Below the pieces are notes generated by a model that saw nothing but the letters and a program-made list of their open reading frames with translations, searched no databases and was not told the DNA's origin. A stretch of DNA of 64,000 nucleotides from Subtercola boreus (GTDB lineage: Bacteria; Actinomycetota; Actinomycetes; Actinomycetales; Microbacteriaceae): positions 124,001 to 188,000 of the forward strand of contig NZ_VFOO01000001.1 in NCBI RefSeq assembly GCF_006716115.1. Direction: 5' to 3'. A program made the translations under genes and the position numbers. Below are positions 4,221 to 39,310 of this stretch, piece after piece; position 1 is the stretch's first letter, and each line of letters begins with the position of its first letter.

Positions 4221-4298
4221 TCGAATCGATTCGATGGGGCCGTAACTGCTTCGAAGACGCGGTTTGCGAGCAGTTCAGGTCCTTTCGAATCGATTCGA
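4221..4298. repeat. 78-bp palindrome-bounded element, copy A
   Basis: The perfect 14-bp palindrome TCGAATCGATTCGA occurs at 4221-4234 and 4285-4298, separated by exactly 50 bp. The 50-bp interior is itself an imperfect inverted repeat around AACTGCT and AGCAGTT. A second copy with the same 14-50-14 layout lies at 39233-39310; the reverse complement of this copy's interior matches that one (shared AAGGAC, AACTGCTCG and GCAGTT blocks), so the two are in opposite orientation. Confidence 0.9.
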
Positions 4299-4342
4299 CG
4301 CGGGGCTCGGGGAGGGGAGGGGCTTCCGGGGAGGGGGCGCGG

Positions 4343-4354
4343 AGTGTGTACATT
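4343..4354 (+). promoter_or_regulatory. Candidate GntR operator, upstream repeat
   Basis: AGTGTGTACATT, containing the palindrome TGTACA, is repeated exactly 62 bp downstream. FadR-type GntR regulators commonly bind short palindromes of the TGTnnnACA kind, so autoregulation is plausible. TACATT inside it could instead be a weak -10 box. Confidence 0.5.
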
Positions 4355-4404
4355 GGGGGGAGATTCGGCGAAGTTCCAGCGCAAAGCTGGCCTGCGGGGC
4401 GATC

Positions 4405-4416
4405 AGTGTGTACATT
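4405..4416 (+). promoter_or_regulatory. Candidate GntR operator, downstream repeat
   Basis: Second exact copy of AGTGTGTACATT, 36 bp before the gntR start codon. Two identical sites spaced by about six helical turns suggest cooperative binding. Inference from sequence only. Confidence 0.5.
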
Positions 4417-4452
4417 CGAGGAGGAGATCGTCGAACGGCAAAGGAGGCAGCG

Positions 4453-5136
4453 GTGGCGTCACGAGCGAGCGACCGGGCCTATGACCTCCTCCGCGACGAG
4501 ATCCTGGAGTGGCAGCTCGAACCCGGCACCACCCTCGGCGAAGTCGAGACGGCAGCCCGTCTCGGCATCTCGCGCACACCGCTCCGTGAAGCGCTCGGGC
4601 GCCTGCAGGCCGACGGTCTGCTCGCCGAATCGGGCCGCGGACTCGTCGTCACCACGGTGTCGACCGACAACGTCGCCGAGCTGTTCGAACTCCGCCAGGC
4701 GCTCGAACAGCAGGCCGCCCGCCTGGCCGCCGCCCGCCGCGATCCGGCCGTGTTCGCCGACCTGCTGTCGCGGTTCCGCTCCGCGCCCGCGTTGCTCGCC
4801 GCCGAGGACCCCGGCCGGCACGACTACTACGAGCTCGTGCGCGAGTTCGACGCATCCGTTGACGAAGCCGTGCGGAGCTCCTACCTGGTCTCCGCCCTCG
4901 CGAACCTGCGCATCCACCTCGCCCGCGTGCGGCGCCTCTCGCAGGACAATCCCGAGCGCCTCCTCGAAGCAGCGGGCGAGCACCGGATGATCGTCGAGGC
5001 CATCCACGACGGCGATGCCGACCTGGCCGCCCACGCCACTCACCTGCACCTGCACAACTCGCTGCGGGCGATACTCTCCACCACCCACACCCCCGCAACC
5101 CACACCCCCGAAACCCACGCCCCCGCACCATCCTGA
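4453..5136 (+). CDS. GntR-family (FadR-type) transcriptional regulator of the prp operon
   Basis: A 227-residue regulator. The winged-helix domain covers about residues 1-70 ([11 protein letters not shown], then [20 protein letters not shown], the family's recognition helix signature). A helical FCD effector domain follows (about 75-210) with the His/Asp/Arg-rich metal- or acid-binding pattern ([27 protein letters not shown]). The last 20 residues are a Thr/Pro/His-rich tail with a repeated THTPxTHTPE motif. The start is GTG 4453, five bases after AAAGGAGG, the best ribosome site in the region. It is the first gene of an operon with prpD, 17 bp downstream, so it probably senses a propionate or methylcitrate metabolite. 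Two TGTACA sites upstream suggest autoregulation. Confidence 0.88.
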
Positions 5137-5153
5137 TCGAGAGGACCCCACCT

Positions 5154-6671
5154 GTGGTCGAACACCTGAACGTGCGCACCTACAAGAGCGACGAAGACCT
5201 GCCCCGCGAGAACCAGCTCGCCCACCGCATCGCGGAGGTCGCCGCCGACCCCGTCGAGGTCACCCCCGAGGTGGTCGACATGGTCATCAACCGCATCATC
5301 GACAACGCGAGCGTGGCTGCGGCCTCCCTCACCCGAAAGCCCGTCGTCTCCGCCCGCTCGCAGGCCGAGGCCCACCCGTACACGCCGGGATCGACCGTGT
5401 TCGGGCTGCCCGCCGACCAGACCGCGAGCCCCGAGTGGGCCGCGTGGGCGAACGGAGTTGCCGTGCGCGAGCTCGACTTCCACGACACGTTCCTCGCCGC
5501 AGAGTATTCGCATCCGGGCGACAACATCCCGCCGATCCTCGCCGTGGCGCAGCACGCCGGCAAGACCGGCGCCGACCTCGTGCGCGGCATCGCGACCGGC
5601 TACGAGATCCAGATCGACCTCGTGAAAGCGATCAGCCTGCACGAGTTCAAGATCGACCACGTCGCGCACCTCGGTCCGTCGGCCGCGGCCGGCATCGGCA
5701 CCCTGCTCGGCCTCGACGTCGAGACCATCTTCCAGGCCGTCGGCCAGGCCCTGCACGTCACGACCGCCACCCGCCAGTCCCGGAAGGGCGAGATCTCCAG
5801 CTGGAAGGCGCACGCTCCCGCCTTCGCCGGCAAGATGGCGGTCGAGGCAGTCGACCGGGCGATGCGCGGCGAGACCAGCCCCACCCCCATCTACGAGGGC
5901 GAAGACGGGGTGATCGCGTGGCTGCTCGGTGGCCCCGAGCGCGTGTACGACGTCGCCCTCCCCGCCGCGGGCGAGGCCAAGCGCGCCATCCTCGACAGCT
6001 ACACCAAGGAGCACTCGGCGGAGTACCAGGCGCAGGCGTGGATCGACCTCGCCCGGAAGCTCCACTCCGAGCATCCGGAGCTCGTCGACCCGGCCAACGT
6101 CACGCGGATCGTGCTGCACACCTCGCACCACACGCACTTCGTCATCGGATCGGGTGCCGGCGACCCGCAGAAGTACGACCCCACCGCGTCGCGCGAGACG
6201 CTCGACCACTCGATCCCGTACATCTTCACTGTCGCGCTGCAGGACGGCGCCTGGAACCACGTCGACTCCTACCTGCCCAGCCGGGCCGGGCGGGAAGACA
6301 CGGTCACGCTCTGGAACAAGGTCAGCACGGTCGAAGACGCCGAGTGGACGCGCCGCTACCACTCGAACGACGTCACCGAGAAGGCGTTCGGCGGTCGAGT
6401 GGAGATCGACCTCGCGAACGGCGAACGGATCGTCGACGAGATCGCTGTGGCGGATGCCCACCCGCTCGGTGCCCGGCCGTTCCAGCGCGCCGACTACATC
6501 CAGAAGTTCCGCACCCTCGCTGCGGGAGTTCTGGAGGAGGCCGAGATCGAGCGCTTCCTCGCGCTCGCCGAGCGCACCAACGAGCTGACCGCCGACGAGG
6601 TGCGCCAGCTGACGATCGTCGCGAAACCCGGCCTGTACGCCGACGTCGAAACCCCGAAGGGACTGTTCTGA
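5154..6671 (+). CDS. prpD: 2-methylcitrate dehydratase (MmgE/PrpD family)
   Basis: A 505-residue PrpD, close to the family's usual 480-505. It dehydrates 2-methylcitrate to 2-methyl-cis-aconitate in the methylcitrate cycle, which oxidises propionyl-CoA to pyruvate. Family hallmarks include the N-terminal region with [15 protein letters not shown] and [12 protein letters not shown], the [13 protein letters not shown] segment, the [18 protein letters not shown] stretch and the C-terminal [13 protein letters not shown]. PrpD-type enzymes need no iron-sulfur cluster, unlike AcnD. The start is GTG, preceded by GAGAGGA. It overlaps prpB by one base (TGATG), so the two are translationally coupled. 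Confidence 0.93.
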
Positions 6672-7570
6672 TGCTGTACGCCACCAAGACCCCCGCCGAC
6701 AAGCGCGCCGACTTCCGCGCGTCGCTCGCCACCGAAAAGCTGCACCGCCTGCCCGGCGCCTTCAACCCGCTCTCCGCCAAGATGATCCAGGCCAAGGGCT
6801 TCGAGGGCGTCTACGTCTCCGGCGCTGTGCTGAGCGCCGACCTCGGGCTCCCCGACATCGGCCTCACCACGCTCACGGAGGTCGCGGGCCGCACCCAGCA
6901 GATCGCCCGGATGACCGACCTGCCCGTTCTGGTCGACGCCGACACCGGCTTCGGCGAACCCATGAACGTGGCTCGCAGCATCCAGACCCTCGAAGACGCC
7001 GGGGTCGCGGGTCTCCACATCGAGGACCAGGTCAACCCGAAACGCTGCGGTCACCTCGACGGCAAGCAGGTCGTCGATCTGGATGTCGCGCTGAAGCGCA
7101 TCCGCGCCGCAGCCGACGCCCGCCGCGACCCGAACCTGCTCATCATGGCGCGCACCGATGTGCGGGCCGTCGAAGGTCTCGCCGCCGCCCAGGACCGCGC
7201 CCGCGCGCTCGTGGACGCGGGAGCCGACGCCATCTTCCCCGAAGCGATGGCCGACCTCACCGAGTTCGAGGCGATCCGCGCGGTCGTCGACGTGCCCGTG
7301 CTGGCGAACATGACCGAATTCGGCAAGAGTGAGTTGTTCACGACCAGCCAGCTCGAGAGCGTCGGCATCAACATCGTCATCTACCCGGTGTCGCTGCTGC
7401 GGCTCGCGATGGGGGCGGCCGACCGGGCGCTCGACGTGCTGAACGCCGAGGGCTCGCTGAACAGTGTGGTCGGTGAGATGCAGCACCGCGCCGACCTCTA
7501 CGAACTGCTCGACTACGAGGCGTACAACGCGTTCGACTCGTCGGTCTTCACCTTCACGATCACGCGATAA
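6671..7570 (+). CDS. prpB: 2-methylisocitrate lyase
   Basis: A 299-residue lyase of the isocitrate lyase/PEP mutase superfamily that cleaves 2-methylisocitrate into pyruvate and succinate. The catalytic KRCGH motif is at residues 124-128 (Cys126), and the metal-binding DADTGFG at 89-95 is present, as is the substrate-loop sequence LHIEDQVNPK just before the cysteine. Length matches PrpB (about 290-305) and not isocitrate lyase (over 420). The ATG overlaps the prpD stop codon. The 22-bp gap to prpC holds a ribosome site, so all four genes from gntR to prpC form one transcript. Confidence 0.94.
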   Translation: MLYATKTPADKRADFRASLATEKLHRLPGAFNPLSAKMIQAKGFEGVYVSGAVLSADLGLPDIGLTTLTEVAGRTQQIARMTDLPVLVDADTGFGEPMNVARSIQTLEDAGVAGLHIEDQVNPKRCGHLDGKQVVDLDVALKRIRAAADARRDPNLLIMARTDVRAVEGLAAAQDRARALVDAGADAIFPEAMADLTEFEAIRAVVDVPVLANMTEFGKSELFTTSQLESVGINIVIYPVSLLRLAMGAADRALDVLNAEGSLNSVVGEMQHRADLYELLDYEAYNAFDSSVFTFTITR

Positions 7571-7592
7571 CACCAGAAGAAAGGGAGCTGTC

Positions 7593-8732
7593 ATGGGCGA
7601 CACCACCATCACGACCACCACCGAGCCGGAGATCCGCAAGGGCCTCGCCGGGGTATACGCGGACTACACCGCTGTCTCGAAGGTCAATGCCGAGACCAAC
7701 TCGCTGCTCTACCGCGGCTACCCCGTGCAGGAGCTCGCGGCGAACTGCTCGTTCGAGCAGGTCGCGTACCTGCTCTGGCACGGCGAACTGCCGACCGCGA
7801 CGCAACTGGAGGAGCTGCAGCACGTCGAGAGGTCGTTCCGCTCGCTCGACCCCGAGATCAAGCAGGTCATCGACATCCTGCCGACCAGCGCCCACCCGAT
7901 GGACGTGCTGCGCACCGCCGTCAGTGCGATCGGTGCGCTCGACCCGCACGCGGACGATTCGAGTGTCGAGTCGAACCTCGCGAAGTCGGTGCAGCTGCTC
8001 GCGCAGATCCCGGCCGTCGTCGCCTACGACCAGCGCCGCCGCCACGGGCTCGACATCATCGAGCCCAACGACGAGCTGAGCTACGCGGAGAACTTCCTCT
8101 ACGTCACCTTCGGCGAGGTGCCCGACAAGGTCGTGGTCGACGCATTCAACGTCTCACTCATCCTGTACGCCGAGCATTCCTTCAACGCGTCGACGTTCAC
8201 CGCGCGGGTCATCACCTCGACTCTCTCCGACCTCTACTCGGCGGTCGTCGGCGGTATCGGTGCGCTGAAGGGTCCCCTGCACGGCGGGGCCAACGAGGCC
8301 GTCATGCACATCTTCGACGAGATCGGCACGGCCGACAAGGCGGCCGACTGGCTGGCCGGTGCGCTGGCGGAGAAGCGCAAGATCATGGGCTTCGGCCACC
8401 GCGTCTACAAGAACGGCGACTCGCGCGTTCCCACGATGAAGGCGTCGCTCGACACCCTGGTGGAGTACTACCAGCGCCCCGACCTCGCCGAGCTCTATGA
8501 CAACCTCGAAGAGGCGATGACCGGCGGCAAGAACATCAAGCCGAACCTCGACTACCCCTCAGGGCCCGCCTACCACCTGATGGGATTCGACACCCCGACC
8601 TTCACCCCGCTCTTCGTCGCGGCGCGCATCACCGGCTGGACCGCCCACATCATGGAGCAGTTGGCCGCCAACTCCCTCATCCGCCCGCTGAGCGCCTACA
8701 ACGGCGTCGACGAACGTCACCTCGAGAGGTAG
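7593..8732 (+). CDS. prpC: 2-methylcitrate synthase / citrate synthase
   Basis: A 379-residue citrate synthase-family enzyme that condenses propionyl-CoA with oxaloacetate, the first step of the methylcitrate cycle. It has the short, type II-like bacterial form: the two catalytic histidines are in LKGPLHGGANEAV and IMGFGHRVYK, and the catalytic aspartate region is NLDYPSGPAYHLMGFD. Operon position after prpD and prpB makes 2-methylcitrate synthase the preferred call, though such enzymes also use acetyl-CoA. GAAAGGGAG precedes the ATG by six bases. Its 3' end overlaps the convergent hydrolase gene by 16 bp, leaving no space for a separate terminator. Confidence 0.93.
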   Translation: MGDTTITTTTEPEIRKGLAGVYADYTAVSKVNAETNSLLYRGYPVQELAANCSFEQVAYLLWHGELPTATQLEELQHVERSFRSLDPEIKQVIDILPTSAHPMDVLRTAVSAIGALDPHADDSSVESNLAKSVQLLAQIPAVVAYDQRRRHGLDIIEPNDELSYAENFLYVTFGEVPDKVVVDAFNVSLILYAEHSFNASTFTARVITSTLSDLYSAVVGGIGALKGPLHGGANEAVMHIFDEIGTADKAADWLAGALAEKRKIMGFGHRVYKNGDSRVPTMKASLDTLVEYYQRPDLAELYDNLEEAMTGGKNIKPNLDYPSGPAYHLMGFDTPTFTPLFVAARITGWTAHIMEQLAANSLIRPLSAYNGVDERHLER

Positions 8733-9724
8733 CGCTCCCAGTCGCCGTTCCGCACCCGCCCGGAGTGCATCTCCGTCTGGGCGAGGGCGGAACGGCGATA
8801 CGACCCTGCGAGACCGTCCCAGCCGGCCGTCCAGTGCAGCTGTCCGGCGACCTGCCACACGGTGGCTTCCGGATGCCCGGACAGCACGGCCGCGGCCTCC
8901 CGCGTGCGGCGATCGTGGTGTTCGGCCGTCTGGCGGCGCCGTTCGCCGAGCCCGGTGAACCGATATCCGTGGCCGGGCAGCACTTCCCAGTCGTCGAACG
9001 GCTCGAGCTGTTCGAGTGAATCGATGTACGTCGTGACCGGGTTGCCGGGCATCCGGCCGCCGAGACCGATGCCGGGGAAGATCATCGGCAGAACGTGGTC
9101 ACCGGTGAACAGCAGCCGGGCATCCTCATCGGCGAAGCAGACGCTACCGGCCGTGTGCCCCGGAGTCGCCAGCACCCGGATGCTGCGGCCGGGGATGTCG
9201 AGGGTGTCGCCGGGCTGCAGCAGCAGGTCGGCGCGGGTGTCGACGATGGCGGCTTCGGAGAGGAACGTGCTCTCGAGCGCCGGCCTTTCGTCGTCGGGCA
9301 CGCCCCAGCGGGTGAAATCGTCGTCGCTGTAGCTGATGGCCGGCACCAGCGCCTGCTCGGCGATGGCCTCCTGGTCGATGCCGCTGAGGCCTATGCGTGC
9401 GCCGAATGCCTCCTGCAGCCGTCCCGCGAGGCCGATGTGGTCGATGTGCATGTGCGTCATCGTGGCGCTCGCGATGCGGCCGACGCTGCTGCCGATCTCG
9501 GCGAGGGCGTGTTCGAGTGCGGCGAAGTTCTCGTCGGAATCCCAGGCCGGGTCGATGATGTGCACCCGGTCCTCCGCGTCGACGATCAGGTAGCACAGCG
9601 TGTACGGCAGCTGCGGGTTCGGCATGGCCTGAGGCAGGGCCCAGACTCCCTCGCCGATCTCTTCGAGCGGCGGGACCGTTCCGTTCGCGGTGGCGGTGAA
9701 CTGGATCGGGCTCGTGGGCTGCAT
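8717..9724 (-). CDS. Metallo-beta-lactamase-fold hydrolase
   Basis: A 335-residue zinc hydrolase. The metal site motif THMHIDHIG (around residues 94-102) is followed by the third histidine in LATPGHTAGS, the bridging aspartate in LLFTGDHVLP and the final histidine in VLPGHGYRF. It belongs to the glyoxalase II-like group that carries a C-terminal helical extension (residues about 255-335), often seen in hydrolases acting on thioesters or lactones; the substrate is unknown. An in-frame GTG exists three codons upstream, but the ATG at 9724 is preferred because a TAGCGT -10 box overlaps that GTG and lies seven bases before the ATG. Confidence 0.85.
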   Translation of the reverse strand: MQPTSPIQFTATANGTVPPLEEIGEGVWALPQAMPNPQLPYTLCYLIVDAEDRVHIIDPAWDSDENFAALEHALAEIGSSVGRIASATMTHMHIDHIGLAGRLQEAFGARIGLSGIDQEAIAEQALVPAISYSDDDFTRWGVPDDERPALESTFLSEAAIVDTRADLLLQPGDTLDIPGRSIRVLATPGHTAGSVCFADEDARLLFTGDHVLPMIFPGIGLGGRMPGNPVTTYIDSLEQLEPFDDWEVLPGHGYRFTGLGERRRQTAEHHDRRTREAAAVLSGHPEATVWQVAGQLHWTAGWDGLAGSYRRSALAQTEMHSGRVRNGDWERYLSR

Positions 9725-9731
9725 GCCCTTC

Positions 9732-9737
9732 ACGCTA
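9732..9737 (-). promoter_or_regulatory. -10 box TAGCGT, leaderless start for the metallo-hydrolase gene
   Basis: TAGCGT on the minus strand is followed by seven bases and the ATG at 9724. It overlaps an in-frame GTG, which argues against using that GTG as the start. Confidence 0.55.
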
Positions 9738-9763
9738 GCGCGCTGCGCTCCGCTGTGCGCGGG

Positions 9764-10693
9764 TCACGTGCTGCGGTGGGTCTGGCGCGGGGGCTCGGTG
9801 AGGCCCGACGCGATGGTTCTGAGGTGCGCGAGCACGGTGCTGACCGCGGCGCGCTCGAGGGTCTCCGGGCGTGCGAGGCAGTCGATGTGGCGGCCGAGGC
9901 CGGGGTGGGCGAGCGGGCGGAGCACCAGGTCGGGGTGCGTGGCGAGGTCGGTCGTGTAGCGGGGCATCAGGGCGATCGAGCCGCTCGCGGTGACGACGGT
10001 GGCGGCGACGAGGAACTCGTTGATCCGGTGCAGGATGCGCGGCTCGCTTCCGCTGACGCCCGCAATCACCGTGATGGCCTGCTCGAGAGGGAAGCCCTCG
10101 TGCACCGCCACCCAGCTCTCGTCCCGCAGGTCGGCGGGCTCGATCACGGGATGGGAAGCCAGAGGATGGTCGGCGCGCATCGCGATGTCGAGGGGCTCGA
10201 ACAGCAGTGGTTCCACCCGCACCGACGACGGCCAGGGCGGGCTGCCGACCAGCCGGTGCGCGATCACGAGATCGTGGTCTGACGTGAGGGCTGGGAACTC
10301 CTCCTGGGCCACGTCGAAATCGCTGAGCCTCACCTGCGGGCGGCCGGGGCCCTGCGCAGCGAGGATCAGCCGGCCGAAGACCGCCAGAGCCGCGCTGTGG
10401 AAGGCCGCCACCGACACCGTGCCCGAGGGGTCACCCTGGAAGCGTGCCACCGCCTGGCCCGCACGTTCGAGCGCCACTTCGACGTCGATCGCCGCGGCAG
10501 CCAGTGCGCGACCGGCGTCGGTGAGGGCGGTTCGCCGCCCGTTCCTGAACGTCAGCGGGGCGGGGGAGTGGCGCTGCAGGGCGCTGATCTGCTGCGAGAC
10601 CGACGACGGTGAGACGTGCAGTGCCGCGGCGACGGCCGCGATACTGCCCCGGTCGCCCAACTCACGCAGCGCACGCAGCTGGCCCAGTTCCAT
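9764..10693 (-). CDS. LysR-family transcriptional regulator
   Basis: A 309-residue LysR regulator. The winged-helix domain (1-60) has the recognition helix LHVSPSSVSQQISALQ; the effector domain (about 90-300) has the two-lobe periplasmic-binding fold with DHDLVIAHRL and DLRDESWVAVHEG. It is divergent from an EamA-type exporter gene, 72 bp away, the usual arrangement for a regulator and its target. Its own start has no ribosome site but a TAGCTT box six bases upstream. The effector is unknown. Confidence 0.88.
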   Translation of the reverse strand: MELGQLRALRELGDRGSIAAVAAALHVSPSSVSQQISALQRHSPAPLTFRNGRRTALTDAGRALAAAAIDVEVALERAGQAVARFQGDPSGTVSVAAFHSAALAVFGRLILAAQGPGRPQVRLSDFDVAQEEFPALTSDHDLVIAHRLVGSPPWPSSVRVEPLLFEPLDIAMRADHPLASHPVIEPADLRDESWVAVHEGFPLEQAITVIAGVSGSEPRILHRINEFLVAATVVTASGSIALMPRYTTDLATHPDLVLRPLAHPGLGRHIDCLARPETLERAAVSTVLAHLRTIASGLTEPPRQTHRST

Positions 10694-10741
10694 AAGTTCA
10701 AGCTAACGTACCGGTGCTGATACTGCTGTCTTGTCTTATGG
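10690..10741. promoter_or_regulatory. Inverted repeat CCATAAG / CTTATGG in the LysR-EamA gap
   Basis: CCATAAG (10690-10696) and CTTATGG (10735-10741) form a perfect 7-bp inverted repeat; the matching extends weakly to TTCAAG/CTTGT. The left arm overlaps the regulator's start codon. Paired sites in a divergent promoter fit LysR autoregulation, but the 38-bp spacing is wider than the usual T-N11-A box. Confidence 0.4.
10700..10705 (-). promoter_or_regulatory. -10 box TAGCTT, leaderless start for the LysR gene
   Basis: TAGCTT is six bases before the ATG at 10693 on the minus strand. Confidence 0.5.
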
Positions 10742-10765
10742 ATTGAGACGCCGGAACATGAACGG

Positions 10766-11701
10766 GTGACCGATCTTCTGAACCGCTTCCGCGTCGACCT
10801 CTTGCTGCTCCTCGTCGCGGCATCGTGGGGTTCGACCTACCTCGCGGCCAAGGAGCTGGTCACGCCGGGTTCCGTTGTGGCGTTGCTCGCGGTGCGCATG
10901 CTGCTCGCCGCCGGGGTCATGGCGGTCGTCGTGGCCGGTCGGCGCCGTCGGGTCACTGCCGCCGAGGTGCGTGTCGGTGTGGTGCTCGGGATGCTGCTCG
11001 CCGCGGTGTTCGCCTTCGAGACGTTCGGCATCGCCCACACCTCGGCCACCAATGCCGGGCTCATCATCAGCCTGACGATCGTGTTCACGCCCCTCCTCGA
11101 CTCCGCCGTCTCCGGTCGGCGCCTGCCCGGGAGGTTCTTCCTCGCCGCCGTCATCGCTGTCGTCGGAGTGTCGCTGCTCGCCGGGAACGGCGCGCTTCGC
11201 CCGCCCAGCGCCGGAGACCTGCTCGTGCTCGTGGCGGCGATCATCCGGGCTGTGCACGTCACCTCGATGTCGAAGCTCACCGCCGGCCGCACGATGGACT
11301 CGCTGCACCTCACGACCGTGCAAGTCGCCACCTGCGCTGCACTCTTCTCCGCAGCATCCCTGTTCGCCGGCGACTCGGTACCGCAGTTCCTCGCGCGGCT
11401 CGACCCCGCGCGGAGCGTGCTGCTCCTCTACCTCGTGCTCGTCTGCACCGTGTTCGCCTTCTTCGTGCAGACCTGGGCCGTGCGGCGCACCTCTCCGTCG
11501 AGGGTCAGCCTCCTGCTCGGCACCGAACCGATCTGGGCCGCCCTCATCGGGATCACGCTCGCCCACGACATCCTGACCCCCGCAGGGTACGCCGGCATCG
11601 CGCTCATCCTCGCCGGCACGGCGTGGGGCCGCTCGATCGAGCAGCGCCACCGCGCCGCGCATCCCCGAATCGGCGGCCTCACCGCGATCCCCCGCAGATA
11701 G
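10766..11701 (+). CDS. EamA/DMT-family transporter
   Basis: A 311-residue integral membrane protein with ten predicted membrane helices in two EamA repeats of five. The N-terminal helix LLLLLVAASWGSTYLAAKELV has the family's WGS/T-F motif. The second repeat begins near residue 150 (LLVLVAAIIRAVHVTSM) and includes LLLGTEPIWAALIG, the conserved EPV-like motif. Members export amino acids or other metabolites; the substrate is not known. The start is GTG 10766; an upstream ATG at 10758 runs into a stop after three codons. The divergent LysR gene is its likely regulator. Confidence 0.87.
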   Translation: MTDLLNRFRVDLLLLLVAASWGSTYLAAKELVTPGSVVALLAVRMLLAAGVMAVVVAGRRRRVTAAEVRVGVVLGMLLAAVFAFETFGIAHTSATNAGLIISLTIVFTPLLDSAVSGRRLPGRFFLAAVIAVVGVSLLAGNGALRPPSAGDLLVLVAAIIRAVHVTSMSKLTAGRTMDSLHLTTVQVATCAALFSAASLFAGDSVPQFLARLDPARSVLLLYLVLVCTVFAFFVQTWAVRRTSPSRVSLLLGTEPIWAALIGITLAHDILTPAGYAGIALILAGTAWGRSIEQRHRAAHPRIGGLTAIPRR

Positions 11702-11784
11702 CGCGGCGGATCCGGCGGAGGCCGCCCGTTCGCCGAATCCCCGGCGTTCACTGCCGCCCTGGGGGCCCTGGCCGGGAGGGGGGG

Positions 11785-12444: not shown

Positions 12445-12450
12445 GGTCTG

Positions 12451-12456
12451 ACCCTA
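12451..12456 (-). promoter_or_regulatory. -10 box TAGGGT, leaderless start for the lysE-like gene
   Basis: TAGGGT on the minus strand lies six bases before the GTG at 12444. The divergent LysR gene's -10 box lies 45 bp away, so both promoters share one short regulatory region. Confidence 0.55.
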
Positions 12457-12500
12457 AGCGCACGGAGAAAGTGAATCCAGCTAAAGTTTTTCAGGCCTCC

Positions 12501-12506
12501 TAAGAT
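12501..12506 (+). promoter_or_regulatory. -10 box TAAGAT, leaderless start for the lysG-like gene
   Basis: TAAGAT is followed by six bases and the ATG at 12513. Confidence 0.55.
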
Positions 12507-12512
12507 CTGCTT

Positions 12513-13424: not shown

Positions 13425-13527
13425 CGGAGGGGTGGTGCCTGAGGTTCGGGTGTGCCTAGGCTGAGGGAGGGCATCCAGAGCCTGGTCTTTTAGAGAGTGC
13501 CCAGCATCCGGGAGAGGCGGTGACGGC

Positions 13528-13794: not shown

Positions 13795-13838
13795 GCTGCG
13801 CATCCGGCGCCAGGTCGGCTGAGCCGCGGATCGGAGCG

Positions 13839-16255: not shown

Positions 16256-16261
16256 CCCTGA

Positions 16262-16267
16262 AATCTA
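16262..16267 (-). promoter_or_regulatory. -10 box TAGATT, leaderless start for the kinase operon
   Basis: TAGATT on the minus strand is six bases before the GTG at 16255. Confidence 0.55.
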
Positions 16268-16340: not shown

Positions 16341-16346
16341 GCACCC

Positions 16347-17030: not shown

Positions 17031-17039
17031 CCGGCCGCG

Positions 17040-31832: not shown

Positions 31833-31864
31833 CATCGTGAGACTACTTTTGCGAGAGTAGTCAC
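31829..31864 (+). promoter_or_regulatory. PadR-gene promoter with overlapping palindromic operator
   Basis: TTGACA (31829-31834) is a consensus -35; after 18 bp comes GAGAGT (31853-31858), a weak -10 located six bases before the ATG at 31865, which suggests leaderless transcription. The inverted repeat GACTAC (31841-31846) / GTAGTC (31857-31862) with a 10-bp spacer overlaps the -10 box, so a repressor bound there would block RNA polymerase. The -35 box overlaps the stop codon of the upstream glycosyltransferase gene. Confidence 0.6.
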
Positions 31865-32653: not shown

Positions 32654-34274
32654 CACCACCGCGCGGGCCCCGCAGGCCGCGCCCGCCATCCCCAAACGTG
32701 CCTGGCAGGCACTCGTCGTGCTGCTGCTCGGCATGTGCATCGCCCTCCTCGACACCACCATCGTGAATGTCGCGCTGCCCACCATCCGGCAGACCCTCGA
32801 CGCCAGCGAGTCGACCCTGTCGTGGATCATCTCGGGCTACGCCCTCGCGTTCGGCCTGGCGCTCATCCCGGCCGGCCGGCTCGGCGACCGCATCGGCCAC
32901 AAATGGGTGTTCTTCACCGGAATCGCCCTGTTCACCGCGGCGAGCTTCGCCTGCGGTTTCGCGGCGAACGACACCCAGCTCGTGATCGCCCGTGTCGTGC
33001 AGGGCCTTGCCGGGGGTATCTTCGTGCCGGCCGTCACCGCGTTCATCCAGCTGCTCTTCCCGCCGCAGGCGCGCGGCAAGGCGTTCGCGATCATGGGCGC
33101 CGTCATCGGTGTCTCGTCCGCCCTCGGCCCCATCATCGGCGGCCTGATCATCCAGGCGTTCGGCGAGGAGAACGGCTGGCGCGGAGTCTTCTTCGTGAAC
33201 CTGCCGATCGGTGTCGTCACGCTCGTCGCGGCGGCGATCCTGCTGCCGAAGCGCAGCGAGATCGAGGCCGGTGCGGGTGCCGGTGCCGGTGCACAGTCGC
33301 GCCGCGGCATCGACTGGATCGGGCTCGTGCTGGTCTCGGGCGCGTTCGTGGCGCTGTTGGTCCCGCTGATCCAGGGACAGGACGAGGGCTGGCCCCTCTG
33401 GACCTACCTCACCATCGCCGGCGGGGTCGTGCTCCTCGCCCTGTTCGGCCTCTGGGAGGTGCTGTACACACGCCGCGGCGGGTCCCCGCTCGTTCCGCCG
33501 AGCCTGTTCAAGCACCCGTCGTTCACCGGTGGAGTCATTCTCGCGCTCGTCTACTTCGCCGCCTTCACCAGCATCTTCTTCACGATCTCGCTGCTCTGGC
33601 AGAGCGGGCTCGGCCACACGGCCCTCGAATCGGGTGCCGTGGCGATCCCGTTCGCGGTCGGCAGCATCCTGAGCTCCTCGCAGAGCAACCGCCTGTCGAC
33701 CCGCCTCGGCCGCAACGTGCTGGTGCTCGGCACCGCGCTCGTCGCCATCGGCCTGATCTGGCTCTGGCTCGTGCTGCTGCTCACCCCGGCGTCCGACCTC
33801 ACCAACTGGGAGCTCATCGCGCCGCTCTTCATCGCCGGCGTCGGCAACGGGTTCTTCATCGCTCCCAATGCGCAGTTCATCGTCGCCACCGTCGACAAGC
33901 GCGACGCCGGAGCCGCGAGCGGCGTGATCTCGGCCGTCCAGCGCATCGGTAGTGCGGTCGGCATCGCCATCATCGGCAGCGTGCTGTTCGGTTCACTCGT
34001 GATCACCGGCCGCGACCAGGCTGCCGTCGCCACCGGCTTCTCGCACGCCGCCGCCTCGGCGATGCTCGTGAGCGCCATCTTCGCGGTGGCCGCGTTCTTC
34101 CTCGTCTTCGCGCTCCCGAAGCGCGTCAGCACCTGGGGCGGAGGCGCCCCCGCCGGCGCGTCCGGCAAGCCCGGGGCTCCCGCCGGCGCCGCAGCCGCAC
34201 CTGCAGGTGCCGGTGCCCATCGTGATGAGCCCGCCAAGCACGCGGGTGCCACCGCTCCGACCGCGGGCGCCTGA
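32646..34274 (+). CDS. MFS multidrug exporter, DHA2 (EmrB/QacA) family
   Basis: A 542-residue exporter with 14 predicted membrane helices. Motif D1 (IALLDTTIVNVALP) starts helix 1, motif A is GRLGDRIGHKW between helices 2 and 3, and motif C is SSALGPIIGGLI in helix 5, a proton-antiporter signature. After the last helix (about residue 497) comes a 45-residue Ala/Gly/Pro tail. The ATG overlaps the PadR stop by eight bases, so repressor and pump are coupled. The 3' end of the gene, including the stop codon, is duplicated just downstream. Confidence 0.9.
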   Translation: MSDTTARAPQAAPAIPKRAWQALVVLLLGMCIALLDTTIVNVALPTIRQTLDASESTLSWIISGYALAFGLALIPAGRLGDRIGHKWVFFTGIALFTAASFACGFAANDTQLVIARVVQGLAGGIFVPAVTAFIQLLFPPQARGKAFAIMGAVIGVSSALGPIIGGLIIQAFGEENGWRGVFFVNLPIGVVTLVAAAILLPKRSEIEAGAGAGAGAQSRRGIDWIGLVLVSGAFVALLVPLIQGQDEGWPLWTYLTIAGGVVLLALFGLWEVLYTRRGGSPLVPPSLFKHPSFTGGVILALVYFAAFTSIFFTISLLWQSGLGHTALESGAVAIPFAVGSILSSSQSNRLSTRLGRNVLVLGTALVAIGLIWLWLVLLLTPASDLTNWELIAPLFIAGVGNGFFIAPNAQFIVATVDKRDAGAASGVISAVQRIGSAVGIAIIGSVLFGSLVITGRDQAAVATGFSHAAASAMLVSAIFAVAAFFLVFALPKRVSTWGGGAPAGASGKPGAPAGAAAAPAGAGAHRDEPAKHAGATAPTAGA

Positions 34275-34442
34275 CCGGGCCGGGGACGGCCCGCGCAGCC
34301 TCTCTCCCCTCACCCCGCACCCCGGCCGGGGGCGGCCCCCGGCAAGCCCGGGGCTCCCGCCGGTGCCCAGCATGATGAGCCCGGCAAGCACGCGGGTGCC
34401 ACCGCTCCGATCGCGGGTGCCTGACCGGGCCGGGGACGGCCC
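34164..34442 (+). repeat. Direct duplication of the exporter gene's 3' end
   Basis: Bases 34164-34291, covering the last codons, the stop and about 17 bp after it, are repeated at 34341-34442 with about 27 bp missing and a few substitutions. Shared blocks include GATGAGCCC, AAGCACGCGGGTGCCACC and CTGACCGGGCCGGGGACGGC. The copies are separated by 49 bp. Confidence 0.9.
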
Positions 34443-34527
34443 CGTTAGCCCCGCACCCCGCCACCGTGCGGCTCCCACCCCGCACCCCGCCCCCGTCCCG
34501 CGCCCCCTGTCGGGCGGCACTGTCGAG

Positions 34528-34575
34528 TGGGCGATTTGGGCCCCAAATTGCGGGATATGGGGCCCAGACTGCCCA
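34528..34575. repeat. Imperfect inverted repeat, related to family 2
   Basis: TGGGCGATTTGGGCCCC (34528-34544) and GGGGCCCAGACTGCCCA (34559-34575) pair over 13 of 17 positions with a 14-base loop. The left arm resembles the right arm of the family-2 element (GGCGCGATTTCGGCCCC) at 14 of 17 positions, so it may be a diverged member. Confidence 0.65.
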
Positions 34576-34596
34576 TTGGATGGGGTGGCCGCTGGC

Positions 34597-34602
34597 TAGA
34601 GT
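34597..34602 (+). promoter_or_regulatory. -10 box TAGAGT, leaderless start for the ydeI-like gene
   Basis: TAGAGT is followed by TGGGGG and the ATG at 34609. The G-run is not a functional ribosome site at that distance. Confidence 0.55.
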
Positions 34603-34608
34603 TGGGGG

Positions 34609-35205
34609 ATGGTGGCTGGCGAGCAGGGCGGGGCGGGGGCGCGCGAGATCGTCTACTGCGACGACGCGGAGGCGTGGCGCGCGTGGCTCGAGCAGAACGC
34701 GAGCTCCAGCGACGGCATCCGGCTCGCCATCGCGAAGAAGGGTGGCGCGCACGAGAGCGTGACCTACGCCGAAGCACTCGACGAGGCCCTCTGCGTCGGC
34801 TGGATCGACGGGCAGAAGAACCGGCTCGACGAGCACCACTTTTTGCAGAACTTCGGTCCGCGCCGTGCGCGCAGCATCTGGTCGCAGATCAACCGGGACA
34901 AGGCGCTCGCCCTCATCGCCGCGAACCGCATGCGGCCCGCGGGGCTCGCCGAGGTCGAACGGGCGCAGGCTGACGGCCGGTGGGAGCGCGCCTACGCCGG
35001 TTCGAAGACCATCGAAGTTCCGGATGATCTCGCCTCCGCCCTGCTGCAGAGCCCCGATGCCGCCGCCTTCTTCGAGACGCTCTCGAGCGTGAACCGCTAC
35101 GCGATCCTGTTCCGCATCGGCTCGGTCAAGCGCGCGGAGACCCGGGCGCGCAAAATCGAGCAGTACGTGCAGATGCTGGAGCGCGGCGAGACCCTCTACC
35201 CCTGA
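34609..35205 (+). CDS. YdeI/OmpD-associated family protein
   Basis: A 198-residue cytoplasmic protein of the YdeI (OmpD-associated) family. The N-terminal domain has the signature ALDEALCVGWIDGQKNRLDE (about 58-77) followed by HHFLQNFGPRRARSIWSQIN; the C-terminal part EVPDDLASALLQSPDAAAFFETLS ends with the KRAETRARKIEQYVQML helix typical of the family. Homologues are described as bacteriocin-protection or stress proteins, but the biochemical role is not established. No partner is obvious nearby. A TAGAGT box six bases upstream supports the ATG. Confidence 0.83.
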   Translation: MVAGEQGGAGAREIVYCDDAEAWRAWLEQNASSSDGIRLAIAKKGGAHESVTYAEALDEALCVGWIDGQKNRLDEHHFLQNFGPRRARSIWSQINRDKALALIAANRMRPAGLAEVERAQADGRWERAYAGSKTIEVPDDLASALLQSPDAAAFFETLSSVNRYAILFRIGSVKRAETRARKIEQYVQMLERGETLYP

Positions 35206-35261
35206 CCTCGCGCCGCGGCGTCCCCGGGCTTCCGCGCCCCCAGTCTCCGCGTTCCGCCGCC

Positions 35262-35321
35262 GTTTGTCGCTTCCGCGCCGGCGCGCGCACGCGCGGAAGC
35301 GACAAACAGGCGCGGAAGCGA
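35262..35321. repeat. Perfect 17-bp inverted repeat plus partial third copy
   Basis: GTTTGTCGCTTCCGCGC (35262-35278) and GCGCGGAAGCGACAAAC (35291-35307) are exact reverse complements with a 12-bp loop. GCGCGGAAGCGAC appears again at 35311-35323 region as a partial direct copy. There is no T run, so a rho-independent terminator is unlikely, though the hairpin could separate the two flanking genes. Confidence 0.85.
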
Positions 35322-35356
35322 CCAGCACCACCGACGTGCGCGGCAGAATGGGAGGC

Positions 35357-35911
35357 ATGGGAACCTTCACGCTCGGCTCGCTCCGTTCCGTCCCCGTCGG
35401 CGGCCGACCGGACCTCGTTTCGCCGGAAGTGGCCGCCGCCCTCGAAGCACTCGGCCTCGGCGAGGAGGTCGGCGTCGTCGAGATCGATCCAGAACTCTCC
35501 GACACTGCTGCGACCCAGGCTGCCTACGACCTCCCCGAAGACGCCCTCGCCAACTGCGTGATCGTCTCCGGACGCCGCGAGGGCGAGCAGCGCATCGCCG
35601 CCTGCCTGGTGCTCGCGACCACCCGCGCCGACGTCAACAACACGGTCAAGCGCCGGCTCGACGTGCGGAAGGCCTCCTTCCTCGCCCGCGAGGATGCCGT
35701 CACGCTGACGGGCATGGAGTTCGGCGCGATCACGCCCATCGGTCTGCCGGCGGGGTGGCCGGTGTTCGTCGACCGGGCGGTTCTGGATGCTCCGCTGATC
35801 GTCATCGGATCGGGCCTCCGCCGCACCAAACTCCTCCTCGCCGGAAGCTCCCTCACGTCGATCCCCGGCGTCGAGATCATCGACGGCCTCGGACAGCCGA
35901 TCGCCCCCTGA
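35357..35911 (+). CDS. YbaK/EbsC-family aminoacyl-tRNA deacylase-like protein
   Basis: A 184-residue protein with the YbaK fold. The order NCVIVSGRREGEQRIAACLVLATTRADVNNTVKRRLDVRKASFL, then MEFGAITPIGLPAGWPVFVD and IVIGSGLRRTKLLLAG, is the family pattern; the lysine needed for catalysis in YbaK/ProX would be the one in RKASFL. Members hydrolyse mischarged Cys- or Ala-tRNAPro. Domain present without fusion to prolyl-tRNA synthetase. The start could be ATG 35348 or 35357; 35357 is preferred because CAGAAT lies seven bases upstream as a leaderless -10 box. Confidence 0.82.
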   Translation: MGTFTLGSLRSVPVGGRPDLVSPEVAAALEALGLGEEVGVVEIDPELSDTAATQAAYDLPEDALANCVIVSGRREGEQRIAACLVLATTRADVNNTVKRRLDVRKASFLAREDAVTLTGMEFGAITPIGLPAGWPVFVDRAVLDAPLIVIGSGLRRTKLLLAGSSLTSIPGVEIIDGLGQPIAP

Positions 35912-36036
35912 CCGGCCCGCCCCCCGCCCGGCGCGCCCGCGACCCCACCCGGGAGGACGCCAGCCAAACCGTGCCCAGATGTGCGGCGGATCCGCTCATC
36001 TCCTCCCGGGCGGATCACCCAGCGCACATCGTGCGC

Positions 36037-36645
36037 TCAGCCGAGCAGCAACTCGAAGCAGAGCGAGTTCGGGATCGCCAGCACGTACGGCTCGTACGTC
36101 GGGATCGGCGTGTAGCCGAGCCGGGTGTAGAGCGCGACCGCCTCGGGTTGCCGGTCACCGGTCTGCAGGATCATCCGCCGGGCATCCGGGCCCGCCTCGC
36201 GCACGATGCGCTCGAGTTCGCTCATCAGCGCGCGGCCGATCCCGCGGCCGCGCTGGCTGCCGTCGACGATGACCCGTTTGACCTCCCATTCGCCGCGCAG
36301 GATGCGGAGCGCCGCGTGGGCGAGGGGAGTCCCGTCCGCGTCGAGCACCAGCACGGTCGCCTGCACGCTGGTCGGGTCGACGGTGAGCGCGGCGAGCACC
36401 GCAGCGTCCATGGGTTGCCCGGAGTGGTAGCGCTCGCCCATCTCGACGTCCATCCGGGCGCGGAGCGCCACCGCGCGCGGGTCGTCCCACGCCACGCGGG
36501 CAAAGGCGAAGGGACGCTCGGCCGGCGGGATGGCGGACGAGTCCACACGTGAGCCGGCCGCGCCGGGCACACCCGTGGGGGAAGCGGGGGCGTCGCTGGT
36601 CGCGCGAGGAGCAGGGGTCGCCGAGGCGGCAGGATGATCGGTCAC
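36037..36645 (-). CDS. GNAT-family acetyltransferase
   Basis: A 202-residue acetyltransferase. The first 42 residues are an Ala/Pro/Ser-rich, probably disordered, extension. The core (about 45-202) has EWEVKRVIVDGSQRGRGIGRALMSELE with the RGxGxG/A acetyl-CoA loop, and ILQTGDRQPEAVALYTRLGYTPIPTYEPYV, the typical C-terminal half. Substrate unknown. The start is GTG 36645, six bases after a TACGCT box. It follows the LysR-like gene on the same strand by only four bases but has its own promoter inside it. Confidence 0.82.
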   Translation of the reverse strand: MTDHPAASATPAPRATSDAPASPTGVPGAAGSRVDSSAIPPAERPFAFARVAWDDPRAVALRARMDVEMGERYHSGQPMDAAVLAALTVDPTSVQATVLVLDADGTPLAHAALRILRGEWEVKRVIVDGSQRGRGIGRALMSELERIVREAGPDARRMILQTGDRQPEAVALYTRLGYTPIPTYEPYVLAIPNSLCFELLLG

Positions 36646-36649
36646 CGTT

Positions 36650-37444
36650 TCAGCGTAAGCCCGCCGCGAGCCGCGCGAAGTCCGCGACATCGTCGCGGGC
36701 GGATCCACCGGCCCACACCAGCACGCTCCTGCGCTGCTCCACGCCGTTGACGGGAACCAGTACGACGTCGGGTCGCTGCTCCGCCTCCACTACGGGCCGC
36801 GGCAGGATGACGATCCCGTTCCCGGCGGCGACGTGGTCGAGTTGCTGCCCAAGAGTCGCCAGCACTCCGAGCTCGAGGCTCTTGCGCGTGCCGACCGTTC
36901 GTCCACGGAGTTCCGACGCGATCTCCCGCCACTCGGGAACCACGTCGGGGTTCTGCAGCAGGTGGTGCCCGCCGAGCTCGGCGAGGTCGATGCGGTCGAG
37001 GGCGGCGAGCGGGTCTTCCGGTGCCAGCGCGACGACGGCGTGCGCTCTGCCGAACGGCGCGGATCCCAGCCCGCGGAGGTGCTGCGGCAGCCACACCGCG
37101 CTGAGGTCGGCCCTGCCGCCGCGGAGGGCGCGCACCCCGGCCCGAGAGACGGTGACGTCCACGTCGACGTGCGGGTTCGCCGTCCGGAACGCCGCAATGA
37201 CGCTGTCGAGCGGGATGCCCGGGGCCGCTGTGATGCGCAGCACCCTGCTCCGGGCATCCGGAAGCGGCACCCTCACCGCCCGGAGTGCCCGCGCGGCAGC
37301 GACCAGCGCGTCGCCCTCGGGCGTGCCCGCGTGTCGGGCGGCGGCAGCAACGAGCGCGTCGAGCCGGTCGAGCTCGCCGGATCGCTCGAGAGCGCTGAGC
37401 CGGCCGGACTCGCCGCGCGCCGGAAGAGAGGGATTCGATGCCAT
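36650..37444 (-). CDS. LysR-type substrate-binding domain protein without DNA-binding domain
   Basis: A 264-residue protein whose residues about 60-264 match the LysR effector domain: LRITAAPGIPLDSVIAAFRTANPHVDVDVTV, the ligand-pocket aspartate stretch, AVVALAPEDPLAALDRIDLAELGGHHLLQNPDVVPEW, and HVAAGNGIVILPRPV. The first 55 residues are Ala/Arg-rich and show no helix-turn-helix, and the frame has no other start that would add one. It may therefore bind a ligand without binding DNA, or be a degraded regulator. A second protein with the same architecture is encoded at 57961-58887, and both share LLQNPDxVPEW-type sequence. Confidence 0.72.
   Translation of the reverse strand: MASNPSLPARGESGRLSALERSGELDRLDALVAAAARHAGTPEGDALVAAARALRAVRVPLPDARSRVLRITAAPGIPLDSVIAAFRTANPHVDVDVTVSRAGVRALRGGRADLSAVWLPQHLRGLGSAPFGRAHAVVALAPEDPLAALDRIDLAELGGHHLLQNPDVVPEWREIASELRGRTVGTRKSLELGVLATLGQQLDHVAAGNGIVILPRPVVEAEQRPDVVLVPVNGVEQRRSVLVWAGGSARDDVADFARLAAGLR
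36652..36657 (-). promoter_or_regulatory. -10 box TACGCT, leaderless start for the GNAT gene
   Basis: TACGCT on the minus strand lies six bases before the GTG at 36645 and inside the end of the upstream gene. Confidence 0.5.
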
Positions 37445-37515
37445 GGGTCTCCTTCGACTGCGACTTCGATCGTGACCCCGACAGCGTACGCCTGCCGGCT
37501 GCGAACGCGCAGTGA

Positions 37516-39147
37516 CTAGCGCTGCACCCACGCGTCGTAGAGCGTCGGTGTCGACACCGTCGGCATCGCCCGCACCCCGTGCACCGCCGACCGCAGCAGG
37601 TAGTGGTTCTGCTGGTCGTACAGCGGCAGGATGTAGAACCCCTCGAGCACGATCTTCTGCGCCTGGGCGTAGAGCGTGGCCGCCTCCGCCGCATCGGTGG
37701 TCTCGGTGGCACGGGTCAGCAGGGCATCCAGAGCGGGATCCTTCACCTGCGAGTGGTTCGCGAAGTACCCGCTCGGCGCCGGAACCGTGCCCGAGCTGTC
37801 GAACAGGATGCGCAGAACGTCGGGCCCGACCTTCGTGTAGGGCGCGCTGACCAGATCGTACGAGTTCGAGCCGAGGGCCGCGTACCAGCTCGACAGGTCG
37901 AGCGGGGCGAGGTCGACCTTGAAACCGACCTGCTTCGCGGTGGCCTGCAGCTGCTCGAAGAGCGACTGCTCGGCCGGGATCGACTGGTTCGTCGACACGG
38001 GGAACGCCAGTTCCAGCGTCTTCCCGTCTTTCGTTCGGTAACCGTCGGCGTCGCGGCCCGTCCAACCGGCCTCGTCGAGCAGGGTCGCGGCTGCCGCCTG
38101 GTCGTAGGTGAACAGGTCGGGCTCCGAGATGCCGTCCTTCTCCACGCTGGAGAGCGCCGAGTACGAGCGGGTGGCGGTTCCGAAGAAGAGGCTCTTCACG
38201 GCGCTGTCGACGTCGGCAGACCGGATGAACGCCTCACGCACCTTCGCATCGTCGAACGGTGCCTTGCTGGAGTTCAGTTCGATGCGATTGGAAGCTCCCG
38301 GCCGCGGTGCGTCGATCGCGACAACGGACGAGTTCGAGGCGGCCTGCGACAGGATGTCCGGCTGTACGTTGTCGATCATGTCGACGGTGGACGTCTGGAG
38401 GGCCGCGTAGCGGGAGGTCGAGTCGGGCAGGAACGTCCAGTCGATCTCGTCGAGGTACGCGGGGCCGGTGTGCCCGGCGTCGGCGGGCGGCGAGCTGTAG
38501 TTGTCGTTCCGGGTCAGGATGATCGACTGCTGACGGTTCCACTGCGTCACCAGGAACGGGCCGGTGCCGACGGGCGAGACGCAGTTGTCCGCCTGCGGGC
38601 GAGCGATCGCCGTGGGCGACTCCATCGCGAGCCACGGCTGCGAGAGCGAGTCGAGCAGGGCGCTGTCGGGCTCCGACAGGTCGAATCGGGCGGTCTGGGC
38701 ATCCAGTGCCTCGACTTTCGCGACTTTCTGCAGGGCGAGGTACCCGGTCGACGAGCCCGTCGCCGGGTTCTGGATGTGCGCCACGTTCGCGGCCACGGCG
38801 GCAGCGTCGAACGGGGTTCCGTCGGTGAAGGTCACCCCGGGCTTGAGGGTGAACGTCCAGCTGAGGGCGTGGTCGGAGACCTTCCATTCGGTCGCCAACC
38901 ACGGGATGACCTCGCCGTCTGTGTCTTTCGAGACGAGGGATTCGAGGTACTGCGTCGCAACGAGGGCCTGCGGGTAGTTGCCGCCGACGTGCGGGTCGAG
39001 GCAGGTGGGCTCGGCATCGCCACTCGCGTAGACCAGTTTTCCGCCGGCGACCGGGGTGGAACTCGTGGCGGCCGGTGTGGATGTGCACCCGGCAAGCAGG
39101 GTGGCGACGGCGAGGCCGGCGAGGAGGGGCAGGGCGAAACGGCGCAC
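37516..39147 (-). CDS. ABC transporter substrate-binding lipoprotein, family 5 (peptide type)
   Basis: A 543-residue extracytoplasmic binding protein. The signal peptide RRFALPLLAGLAVATLLAG ends in a lipobox with Cys21 (LLAGC), so it is membrane-anchored by a lipid. The SBP_bac_5 signature lies in the section from LDPHVGGNYPQALVATQYLESLV to AYLDEIDWTFLPDSTSRYAALQ, and the fold continues to the end. Known members deliver oligopeptides, dipeptides, nickel or opines. No permease or ATPase genes for such a system are in the window, so this is an orphan receptor. GTG 39147 is used because it gives a normal signal peptide; AGAGAG lies about ten bases upstream. Confidence 0.87.
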   Translation of the reverse strand: MRRFALPLLAGLAVATLLAGCTSTPAATSSTPVAGGKLVYASGDAEPTCLDPHVGGNYPQALVATQYLESLVSKDTDGEVIPWLATEWKVSDHALSWTFTLKPGVTFTDGTPFDAAAVAANVAHIQNPATGSSTGYLALQKVAKVEALDAQTARFDLSEPDSALLDSLSQPWLAMESPTAIARPQADNCVSPVGTGPFLVTQWNRQQSIILTRNDNYSSPPADAGHTGPAYLDEIDWTFLPDSTSRYAALQTSTVDMIDNVQPDILSQAASNSSVVAIDAPRPGASNRIELNSSKAPFDDAKVREAFIRSADVDSAVKSLFFGTATRSYSALSSVEKDGISEPDLFTYDQAAAATLLDEAGWTGRDADGYRTKDGKTLELAFPVSTNQSIPAEQSLFEQLQATAKQVGFKVDLAPLDLSSWYAALGSNSYDLVSAPYTKVGPDVLRILFDSSGTVPAPSGYFANHSQVKDPALDALLTRATETTDAAEAATLYAQAQKIVLEGFYILPLYDQQNHYLLRSAVHGVRAMPTVSTPTLYDAWVQR

Positions 39148-39232
39148 GGATGACTCTCTCAGAGCTGAGGGGGGATTGATGGACTCAGTCCACAATCCTA
39201 CGGGCCGTGCGGCCGCCTCGCGCCCGTGCGCG

Positions 39233-39310
39233 TCGAATCGATTCGAAAGGACGCCAACTGCTCGAAAGCGACCCGCACGGAGCAGTTGGCGTCCCATCGA
39301 ATCGATTCGA
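39233..39310. repeat. 78-bp palindrome-bounded element, copy B
   Basis: TCGAATCGATTCGA at 39233-39246 and 39297-39310 flanks exactly 50 bp. The interior has the perfect 15-bp inverted repeat GGACGCCAACTGCTC (39249-39263) and GAGCAGTTGGCGTCC (39280-39294). It lies about 90 bp upstream of the binding-protein start, between it and an unknown gene. See copy A at 4221-4298. Confidence 0.92.

Follow-up and report, generated by a model that had tools for sequence, protein, structure and literature searches.

The 78-bp element that occurs twice in a 64,000-nucleotide stretch of the Subtercola boreus genome (assembly GCF_006716115.1, contig NZ_VFOO01000001.1, positions 124,001 to 188,000; this whole stretch is referred to as the window) is the long form of a dispersed palindrome with a core of about 58 bp. 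We consider it probable that this long form is concentrated in this genome and behaves like a non-autonomous mobile element. That the family as a whole represents a dispersed, probably mobile palindrome of a kind known from elsewhere is well supported. An initial annotation had described two copies with an exact 14-50-14 layout, i.e. two 14-bp palindromes around a 50-bp interior, and both coordinates and layout proved correct. The interior does form an inverted repeat, and reversing the copy at 4221 improves its alignment with that at 39233, in agreement with the claim that the interior of one corresponds to the reverse complement of the other. That earlier view missed that most copies in the genome lack the 14-bp ends, that some copies lie in frame within genes, and that, throughout the genus, the 14-mer occurs as a site in promoters.

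Copy number and structure of the palindrome family

The 14-mer TCGAATCGATTCGA, a 14-bp palindrome with a central CG, occurs 25 times in exact form on the forward strand of the 4,214,389-base genome, compared with an expectation of 0.0017 from base composition and no occurrence of the reversed control pattern. The genome-wide search for pairs of 14-mers 64 bp apart, which the initial annotation had proposed, returned 15 near-exact pairs: with up to three mismatches allowed, the two inner 12-mers were found with a spacing of 52 bp (start-to-start distance 64 bp) at 15 places (11 with no mismatch, four with one; control 0), and exact matches again numbered 11 when the gap could vary from 50 to 54.

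A first model of the element (R1) was built from 17 copies that fit the 78-bp frame, of which 15 have both ends and two have lost one. Its catalogue overlooked weak copies, and counts are therefore taken from a second model (R2), which comprises 66 of 73 collected cores (L027, L030, L112, L125, L127, L139 and L140 were excluded; L and G numbers denote loci and genomes of our collection). R2 detected at least 61 places in the genome at E <=1, with 59 catalogued, 58 above the score used and 52 at E <=0.001; since only the best 150 of 2242 candidates were scored, the copy number is a lower bound. Partial matches at 3532694 and 3259165 were kept out of the catalogue, the match at 3803981 (score 23) was removed from the 59 loci before counting, and the catalogued copies at 127710, 711455 and 3702700 are off by about one base.

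The core consists of two arms of about 24 bp on either side of a 10-bp centre, the arms being conserved and the loop variable. Core length is nearly constant, a value of 58 bp that is partly imposed by the windows used; L091 and L118 fit 59 bp, and L125 carries an indel. The 14-mer is present on 18 of the 58 copies, at both ends in 15 and at one end in three, and the scores of the ends are bimodal (33 ends with 12-14 matches, 83 with eight or fewer). The 78-bp copies have a left-right asymmetry in common, and they share a diagnostic base: column 15 is a T in 73% of their half-sites versus 2% in 18 plain copies (those without 14-mers) of the same genome, with L091, L100, L118 and L121 excluded from this comparison. 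Within the 78-bp copies, conservation is higher in the 14-mers than in the remaining sequence.

Pairing of the arms and genomic placement

Pair-preserving changes across the 66 cores number 117, compared with 70.2 in shuffles (none of 500 shuffles as high), whereas the 17 copies of the R1 model show six double arm changes versus 10.9 in shuffles. The earlier statement that substitutions partly preserve pairing thus applies to the wider family and fails for the long form. Stems are predicted to be strong in the three copies that were folded (-46.2 to -56.2 kcal/mol). On the sense strand, G-U and A-C mismatches are equally frequent, both in 17 tandem copies (15 versus 16) and in six in-gene copies (4 versus 4). 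Because G-U pairs are not in excess over A-C, pairing looks like a property of the DNA, and selection at the RNA level was dropped as an explanation. Template-switch correction of imperfect palindromes could yield pairing without selection. A comparison of 12 loci (28,120 bases) with Rfam gave only three weak microRNA matches, all under gathering scores.

Classified by gene context with our own gene caller, the 58 copies comprise 24 between convergent genes, 19 between tandem genes, six between divergent genes and nine called as coding. Convergent gene ends account for 24 of the 49 intergenic copies but for only 21 of 191 background intergenic regions (IGRs) of at least 60 bp (odds ratio 7.8, Fisher p 2.7e-8); this background consists of the window and 20 stretches and is a non-random sample because the stretches were chosen away from known copies. 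Among the copies found, none is located within a region of 0.861 Mb (G000:C1 1.957-2.819 Mb; P 7e-5 for such a gap). The second contig likewise contains none of the copies found, with 2.4 expected. Over about 100 bp, copies are flanked by C-rich sequence on the left and G-rich sequence on the right, regardless of gene orientation. The mean difference in skew between flanks is 0.51 at copies versus 0.02 in 128 control IGRs (p 4e-17), and 0.50 versus 0.15 if only convergent regions are compared (p 3e-4); in-gene copies display the same pattern.

One explanation is that the palindromes terminate transcription in both directions, as hairpins under selection at convergent gene ends, with a host factor accounting for the sequence they share. 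The strong predicted stems, the preference for convergent ends, the pair-preserving changes across 66 copies and the persistence of copies at orthologous spacers with diverging flanks (see below) are all in line with this idea. Nevertheless, we regard it as unlikely: stems inspected by eye lack a U-tract behind them (a scan for terminators was not part of the analysis), the balance of G-U and A-C in tandem copies gives no sign of RNA pairing selected on one strand, and seven copies are located inside genes. Moreover, crowding between convergent genes is shared by pneumococcal repeats and insertion sequence (IS) elements, which the authors of that study take to indicate that these are mobile and parasitic entities (PMC3049150).

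Copies inside genes

Seven copies are situated in frame inside genes with Pfam domains, which were detected on both sides of the copy in five cases and on one side in two (Table 1). Two of the nine coding calls, at 1312661 and 1521656, are probably artefacts of the gene caller at gene ends and do not belong to these seven. A first impression that the in-gene copies were artefacts altogether was dropped after Pfam domains and orthologues had been considered. The copies sit in linkers rich in Ala, Pro and Gly, and five of the seven are read in one common frame, resulting in peptides such as SKGPELLQSAPERAVSVLSM and PKGPELFESDALGAVGVLSA (pattern SKGPELL..AVSVLS); other reading frames are used in the cysteine-desulfurase-like gene and in NadB of the relative G153. 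Most reading frames of the palindrome are free of stop codons (285 of 348, counting six frames of 58 copies), which would fit tolerance of in-frame insertion.

The linker of the cysteine-desulfurase-like protein contains one copy in this genome, one similar peptide in G090, a tandem pair of such peptides in G153, and no such insert in five of the 12 genus genomes (G200, G199, G007, G205 and G206); the remaining four genomes have other sequence at this position. The NadB linker, readable at eight of ten loci, carries one copy in this genome, a tandem pair in G153, a similar peptide without clear palindrome in G200, and a different, weaker palindrome at the same linker in G201 and G206, while the other three readable genomes show no strong palindrome. 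Among related genomes there are thus species with and without inserts, and differing palindromes at one enzyme linker, and the birth and spread of such inserts can therefore be followed.

Comparison with relatives

The plain copies of this genome, among those fetched, are matched by copies at orthologous positions in G153 or G200. In 14 orthologous pairs, selected for a copy in both members and excluding the pair L091/L118, identity is 0.80 for the arms, 0.61 for the loop and 0.42 for the flanks (aligned ungapped). A different picture was obtained for the 78-bp copies. In G153, nine of 11 orthologous intervals have no core scoring above five shuffles each and one has a plain core; the eleventh contains a plain copy which by position corresponds to the window copy at 3712, not to that at 4221. 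In G200, seven of nine orthologous intervals read show nothing above shuffles, and two are slightly above on account of a palindrome that is different by eye. At L018 and L027, where both flanks could be aligned, this genome is longer by DNA that includes the element. The empty sites in relatives that the initial annotation had suggested looking for are thus seen insofar as most orthologous intervals read lack the 78-bp form, but this does not hold for all of them.

Several observations speak against a simple reading as a mobile element. At or close to three loci with the 78-bp form here, relatives also have a core: L023 corresponds to a plain core in G090, L028 to a plain core in G153 and G199, and L025 to a core with one 14-mer in G153. 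At these loci, therefore, 14-mers were gained or lost or a copy was replaced, and no new insertion occurred. A number of orthologous intervals were reached from a single flank, so that rearrangement could mimic absence; L026 aligns on its left flank only and was rejected as a clean empty site, since the right flank fails to align. In a G153 spacer (L195), whose left side is orthologous to that of the copy at 4015002, 12 of 14 positions of the 14-mer are matched with no core present (none of 200 shuffles as good), and this remnant could be a sign of loss. Target-site duplications, another check proposed by the initial annotation, are absent, direct repeats of k 2-9 being at chance level in 15 two-ended and 40 plain copies. 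No match was found in plasmids and phages with one copy as blastn query, and a single exact pattern likewise gave none in viral contigs. Finally, the in-gene copies are predicted to be coding by our own gene caller together with Pfam. The Y1_Tnp family has no match in this genome (0/1, with five of 14 control genomes positive; other transposases were not searched).

REP and BIME sequences are associated with RAYT, and the many-copy short extragenic palindromes found here resemble them. A system of this type, in which a Y1 (TnpA-REP) transposase moves the palindromes, is very improbable, as the resemblance in copy number, size and intergenic location is set against the absence of a Y1 transposase, a search confined to this genome with relatives not searched. 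MITEs are similar in being small and having terminal inverted repeats, but differ from the element described here with respect to the target-site duplications, and Y1 was the sole transposase family searched for as a parent.

Based on the shared diagnostic base, the common asymmetry and the interval comparisons with relatives, we read the data as the spread of one subfamily, the 78-bp form, in this lineage, partly to new sites and partly via change or replacement at old ones. Among the guesses offered initially, 'miniature mobile element' and 'REP-like repeat' come closest, given the dispersed copies, the concentration of one subfamily in the genome and the sites of relatives that lack the element. 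The idea of a protein-binding site is supported for the ends only, where a LacI-family repressor would be the likely binder and not a nucleoid or segregation factor; no support was found for a recombinase site, although no search aimed at recombinases was made.

The palindromes extend beyond the genus. A search with the core model and strict filters, in which the best 18 candidates were scored per genome, gave a match at E 0.001 in 19 of 299 genomes of the bacterial family, representing 11 of its 85 genera. Judged by eye, the outer arms differ between genera yet remain complementary, and inner CGCAAA-TGCTC is largely kept. Matches to the pair pattern outside the genus (eight stretches in Anaerosolibacter, Herbidospora, Frondihabitans and Paractinoplanes) were taken as unrelated operator-like pairs, judging by their titles and differing spacings.

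The 14-mer as an operator-like site

An exact 14-mer is present in the promoter region of the transporter gene MFS_A in all 12 genus genomes. A LacI-family gene divergent from MFS_A is seen in 11 of these; in G090 the contig ends on that side. A second 14-mer precedes MFS_B, again in 12 of 12. Since the same two promoter sites recur in all 12 genomes, the 14-mer is, judging from its sequence context, a conserved operator-like site of the genus that is also carried by palindromes of this genome. Its general form is that of LacI-family operators: like them it is a palindrome centred on CG and placed between a LacI-family gene and the transporter gene divergent from it, conserved at what would be the regulator's own promoter (11 genomes); unlike them, it is also located at the ends of dispersed palindromes. 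At one mismatch or fewer, the other 11 genus genomes contain two to four sites each, and gene neighbourhoods were read for exact 14-mers. A third exact 14-mer lies between other genes in G201 (L176) and G206 (L171), one of these genes being MFS-transporter-like by eye. All remaining exact 14-mers belong to palindromes, comprising 23 ends in this genome and two in G153.

These sites bear on a further explanation, according to which the palindromes were inserted long ago and are neutral, the matching of their arms results from template-switch correction, and the 14-mers are the hitch-hiking end of one amplified copy with no role in binding. The lack of a sense-strand bias, the lack of arm covariation in the 78-bp copies and the resemblance of these copies to a single subfamily agree with it. 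It is doubtful nevertheless, for the arms keep about 80% identity between species as loop and flanks diverge, and the 14-mers outlast the rest of the same copies and are identical to the site that recurs at both MFS promoters in all 12 genomes.

Comparison with known repeats

Judged by analogy, the nearest known kind in behaviour appears to be the Rickettsia palindromic elements (RPE). RPE comprise several families with lengths of 105-146 bp, located in intergenic DNA as well as in frame inside genes (PMC2229807, PMC10969869). Both Rickettsia and Wolbachia have protein-coding palindromes, and enterobacteria have small in-gene repeats. Like the palindromes of Rickettsia and Wolbachia, the elements of S. 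boreus are stem-loop palindromes (three copies folded, pairing in 66) which are intergenic or fused in frame in unrelated conserved genes (seven genes with Pfam domains, with species lacking the insert). A conserved peptide is described for RPE; here five of the seven in-gene copies use one frame, with the other frames noted above. With about 58 or 78 bp the elements fall short of the length given for RPE in PMC2229807, and they differ in residing in a high-GC genome, in their ends resembling a host operator, and in their C-rich left and G-rich right flanks, a comparison made by description only. We keep the element apart from RPE because the length differs and the likeness rests on description, not on sequence.

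The small dispersed repeats SPRITE, RUP and BOX of Streptococcus pneumoniae, and IS elements in this organism, are likewise reported to be enriched between convergent genes (PMC3049150). SPRITE has a T-rich tract, whereas none was seen here, and copies here also occur in frame in genes. The ERIC and RU repeats of enterobacteria are small mobile palindromes reported in genes too (PMC2229807, PMC2759123), but at 127-168 bp they are longer and some have a target-site duplication (PMC2229807); this comparison is again by description. In open-licence PubMed Central (PMC) literature we found no report of protein-coding palindromes in Actinobacteria, and within that literature the palindrome family is apparently unreported in this group.

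Possible mode of spread and regulatory consequences

The element may spread through copying, aided by machinery acting in trans, and would survive where insertion harms little, i.e. behind genes or in frame within flexible linkers. The 78-bp subfamily, with the presumed site of a LacI-family regulator at both ends, would seed paired repressor sites 64 bp apart. A distance of 64 bp corresponds to about six helical turns at 10.5 bp per turn. The likeliest outcomes would be binding or bridging by the repressor, its titration, or a roadblock to transcription from adjacent genes; a regulatory consequence of the operator-bearing ends is a testable inference.

We tentatively suggest, with somewhat less than even confidence, that a small mobile palindrome captured the operator of a chromosomal LacI-family repressor at both ends, and that its spread planted about 33 extra repressor sites at 18 places in one species. 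If true, a regulon with two genus-conserved sites would have acquired genome-wide paired sites for bridging, or its repressor would be titrated, with other members of the palindrome family adding a recurring peptide to enzymes. The operator-bearing ends would then be a natural case in which a mobile repeat spreads the sites of a host regulator, which has been proposed as a way for regulons to grow.

Features of the window and other palindromes

R2 finds four copies of the family in the window (Table 1). As originally described, the two 78-bp copies are intergenic and close to a gntR and a binding-lipoprotein gene, identified as a GntR/FCD gene (start 4453) beside copy 1 and a minus-strand SBP_bac_5 gene (start 39147) beside copy 2; both copies are flanked by genes of the same direction. 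The plain copy at 3712 is separated from copy 1 by a low-complexity C-rich stretch (3767-4220), and the G153 spacer matching this region is shorter by about 550 bp.

Table 1. Palindrome copies in the window and genes predicted to host in-frame copies elsewhere in the genome
Feature	Position in window	Strand	Remarks
78-bp element, copy 1	4221..4298	.	14-mer + 50-bp interior + 14-mer
Copy 1, core (58 bp)	4231..4288	.	R2 model, 36.7 bits
Copy 1, left-end operator-like 14-mer	4221..4234	.	exact match
Copy 1, right-end operator-like 14-mer	4285..4298	.	exact match
78-bp element, copy 2	39233..39310	.	14-50-14 layout
Copy 2, core (58 bp)	39243..39300	.	R2 model, 54 bits
Copy 2, left-end operator-like 14-mer	39233..39246	.	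exact match
Copy 2, right-end operator-like 14-mer	39297..39310	.	exact match
Additional core without 14-mers	3712..3766	.	R2 model, 27.3 bits; about 97 bp past the stop of a CarD-like gene at 3126-3614 (CarD domains)
Additional core without 14-mers	48708..48763	.	R2 model, 28.6 bits, and palindrome scan; divergent intergenic region
In-gene host: PRTase_2 and TRSP			Pfam
In-gene host: NAD(P)/FAD-binding protein			Pfam
In-gene host: amine oxidase			Pfam; in NCBIfam like protoporphyrinogen oxidase, below cut-off
In-gene host: histidine kinase			Pfam
In-gene host: L-aspartate oxidase (nadB)			Pfam; above TIGR00551 cut-off
In-gene host: Aminotran_5 protein like cysteine desulfurases			Pfam; below NCBIfam cut-offs
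In-gene host: double ABC ATPase			Pfam

Other palindromes were encountered as well. A second family of similar length, around TCGAGTGGGC..GCCCACTCGA, is present at L250 and L261 of this genome and in two orthologous spacers of G200 (L205, L206). Palindromes around GGACGAGAG..CTCTCGTCC or similar sequences were noted at L219 (G203), L209 and L304 (G201) and L296 (G206), and the palindrome in the NadB linker of G201 and G206 resembles this type. A third type, around TTTGTCGC..GCGACAAA, lies between tandem genes at about 35252-35317 of the window and elsewhere in the genome at L259.

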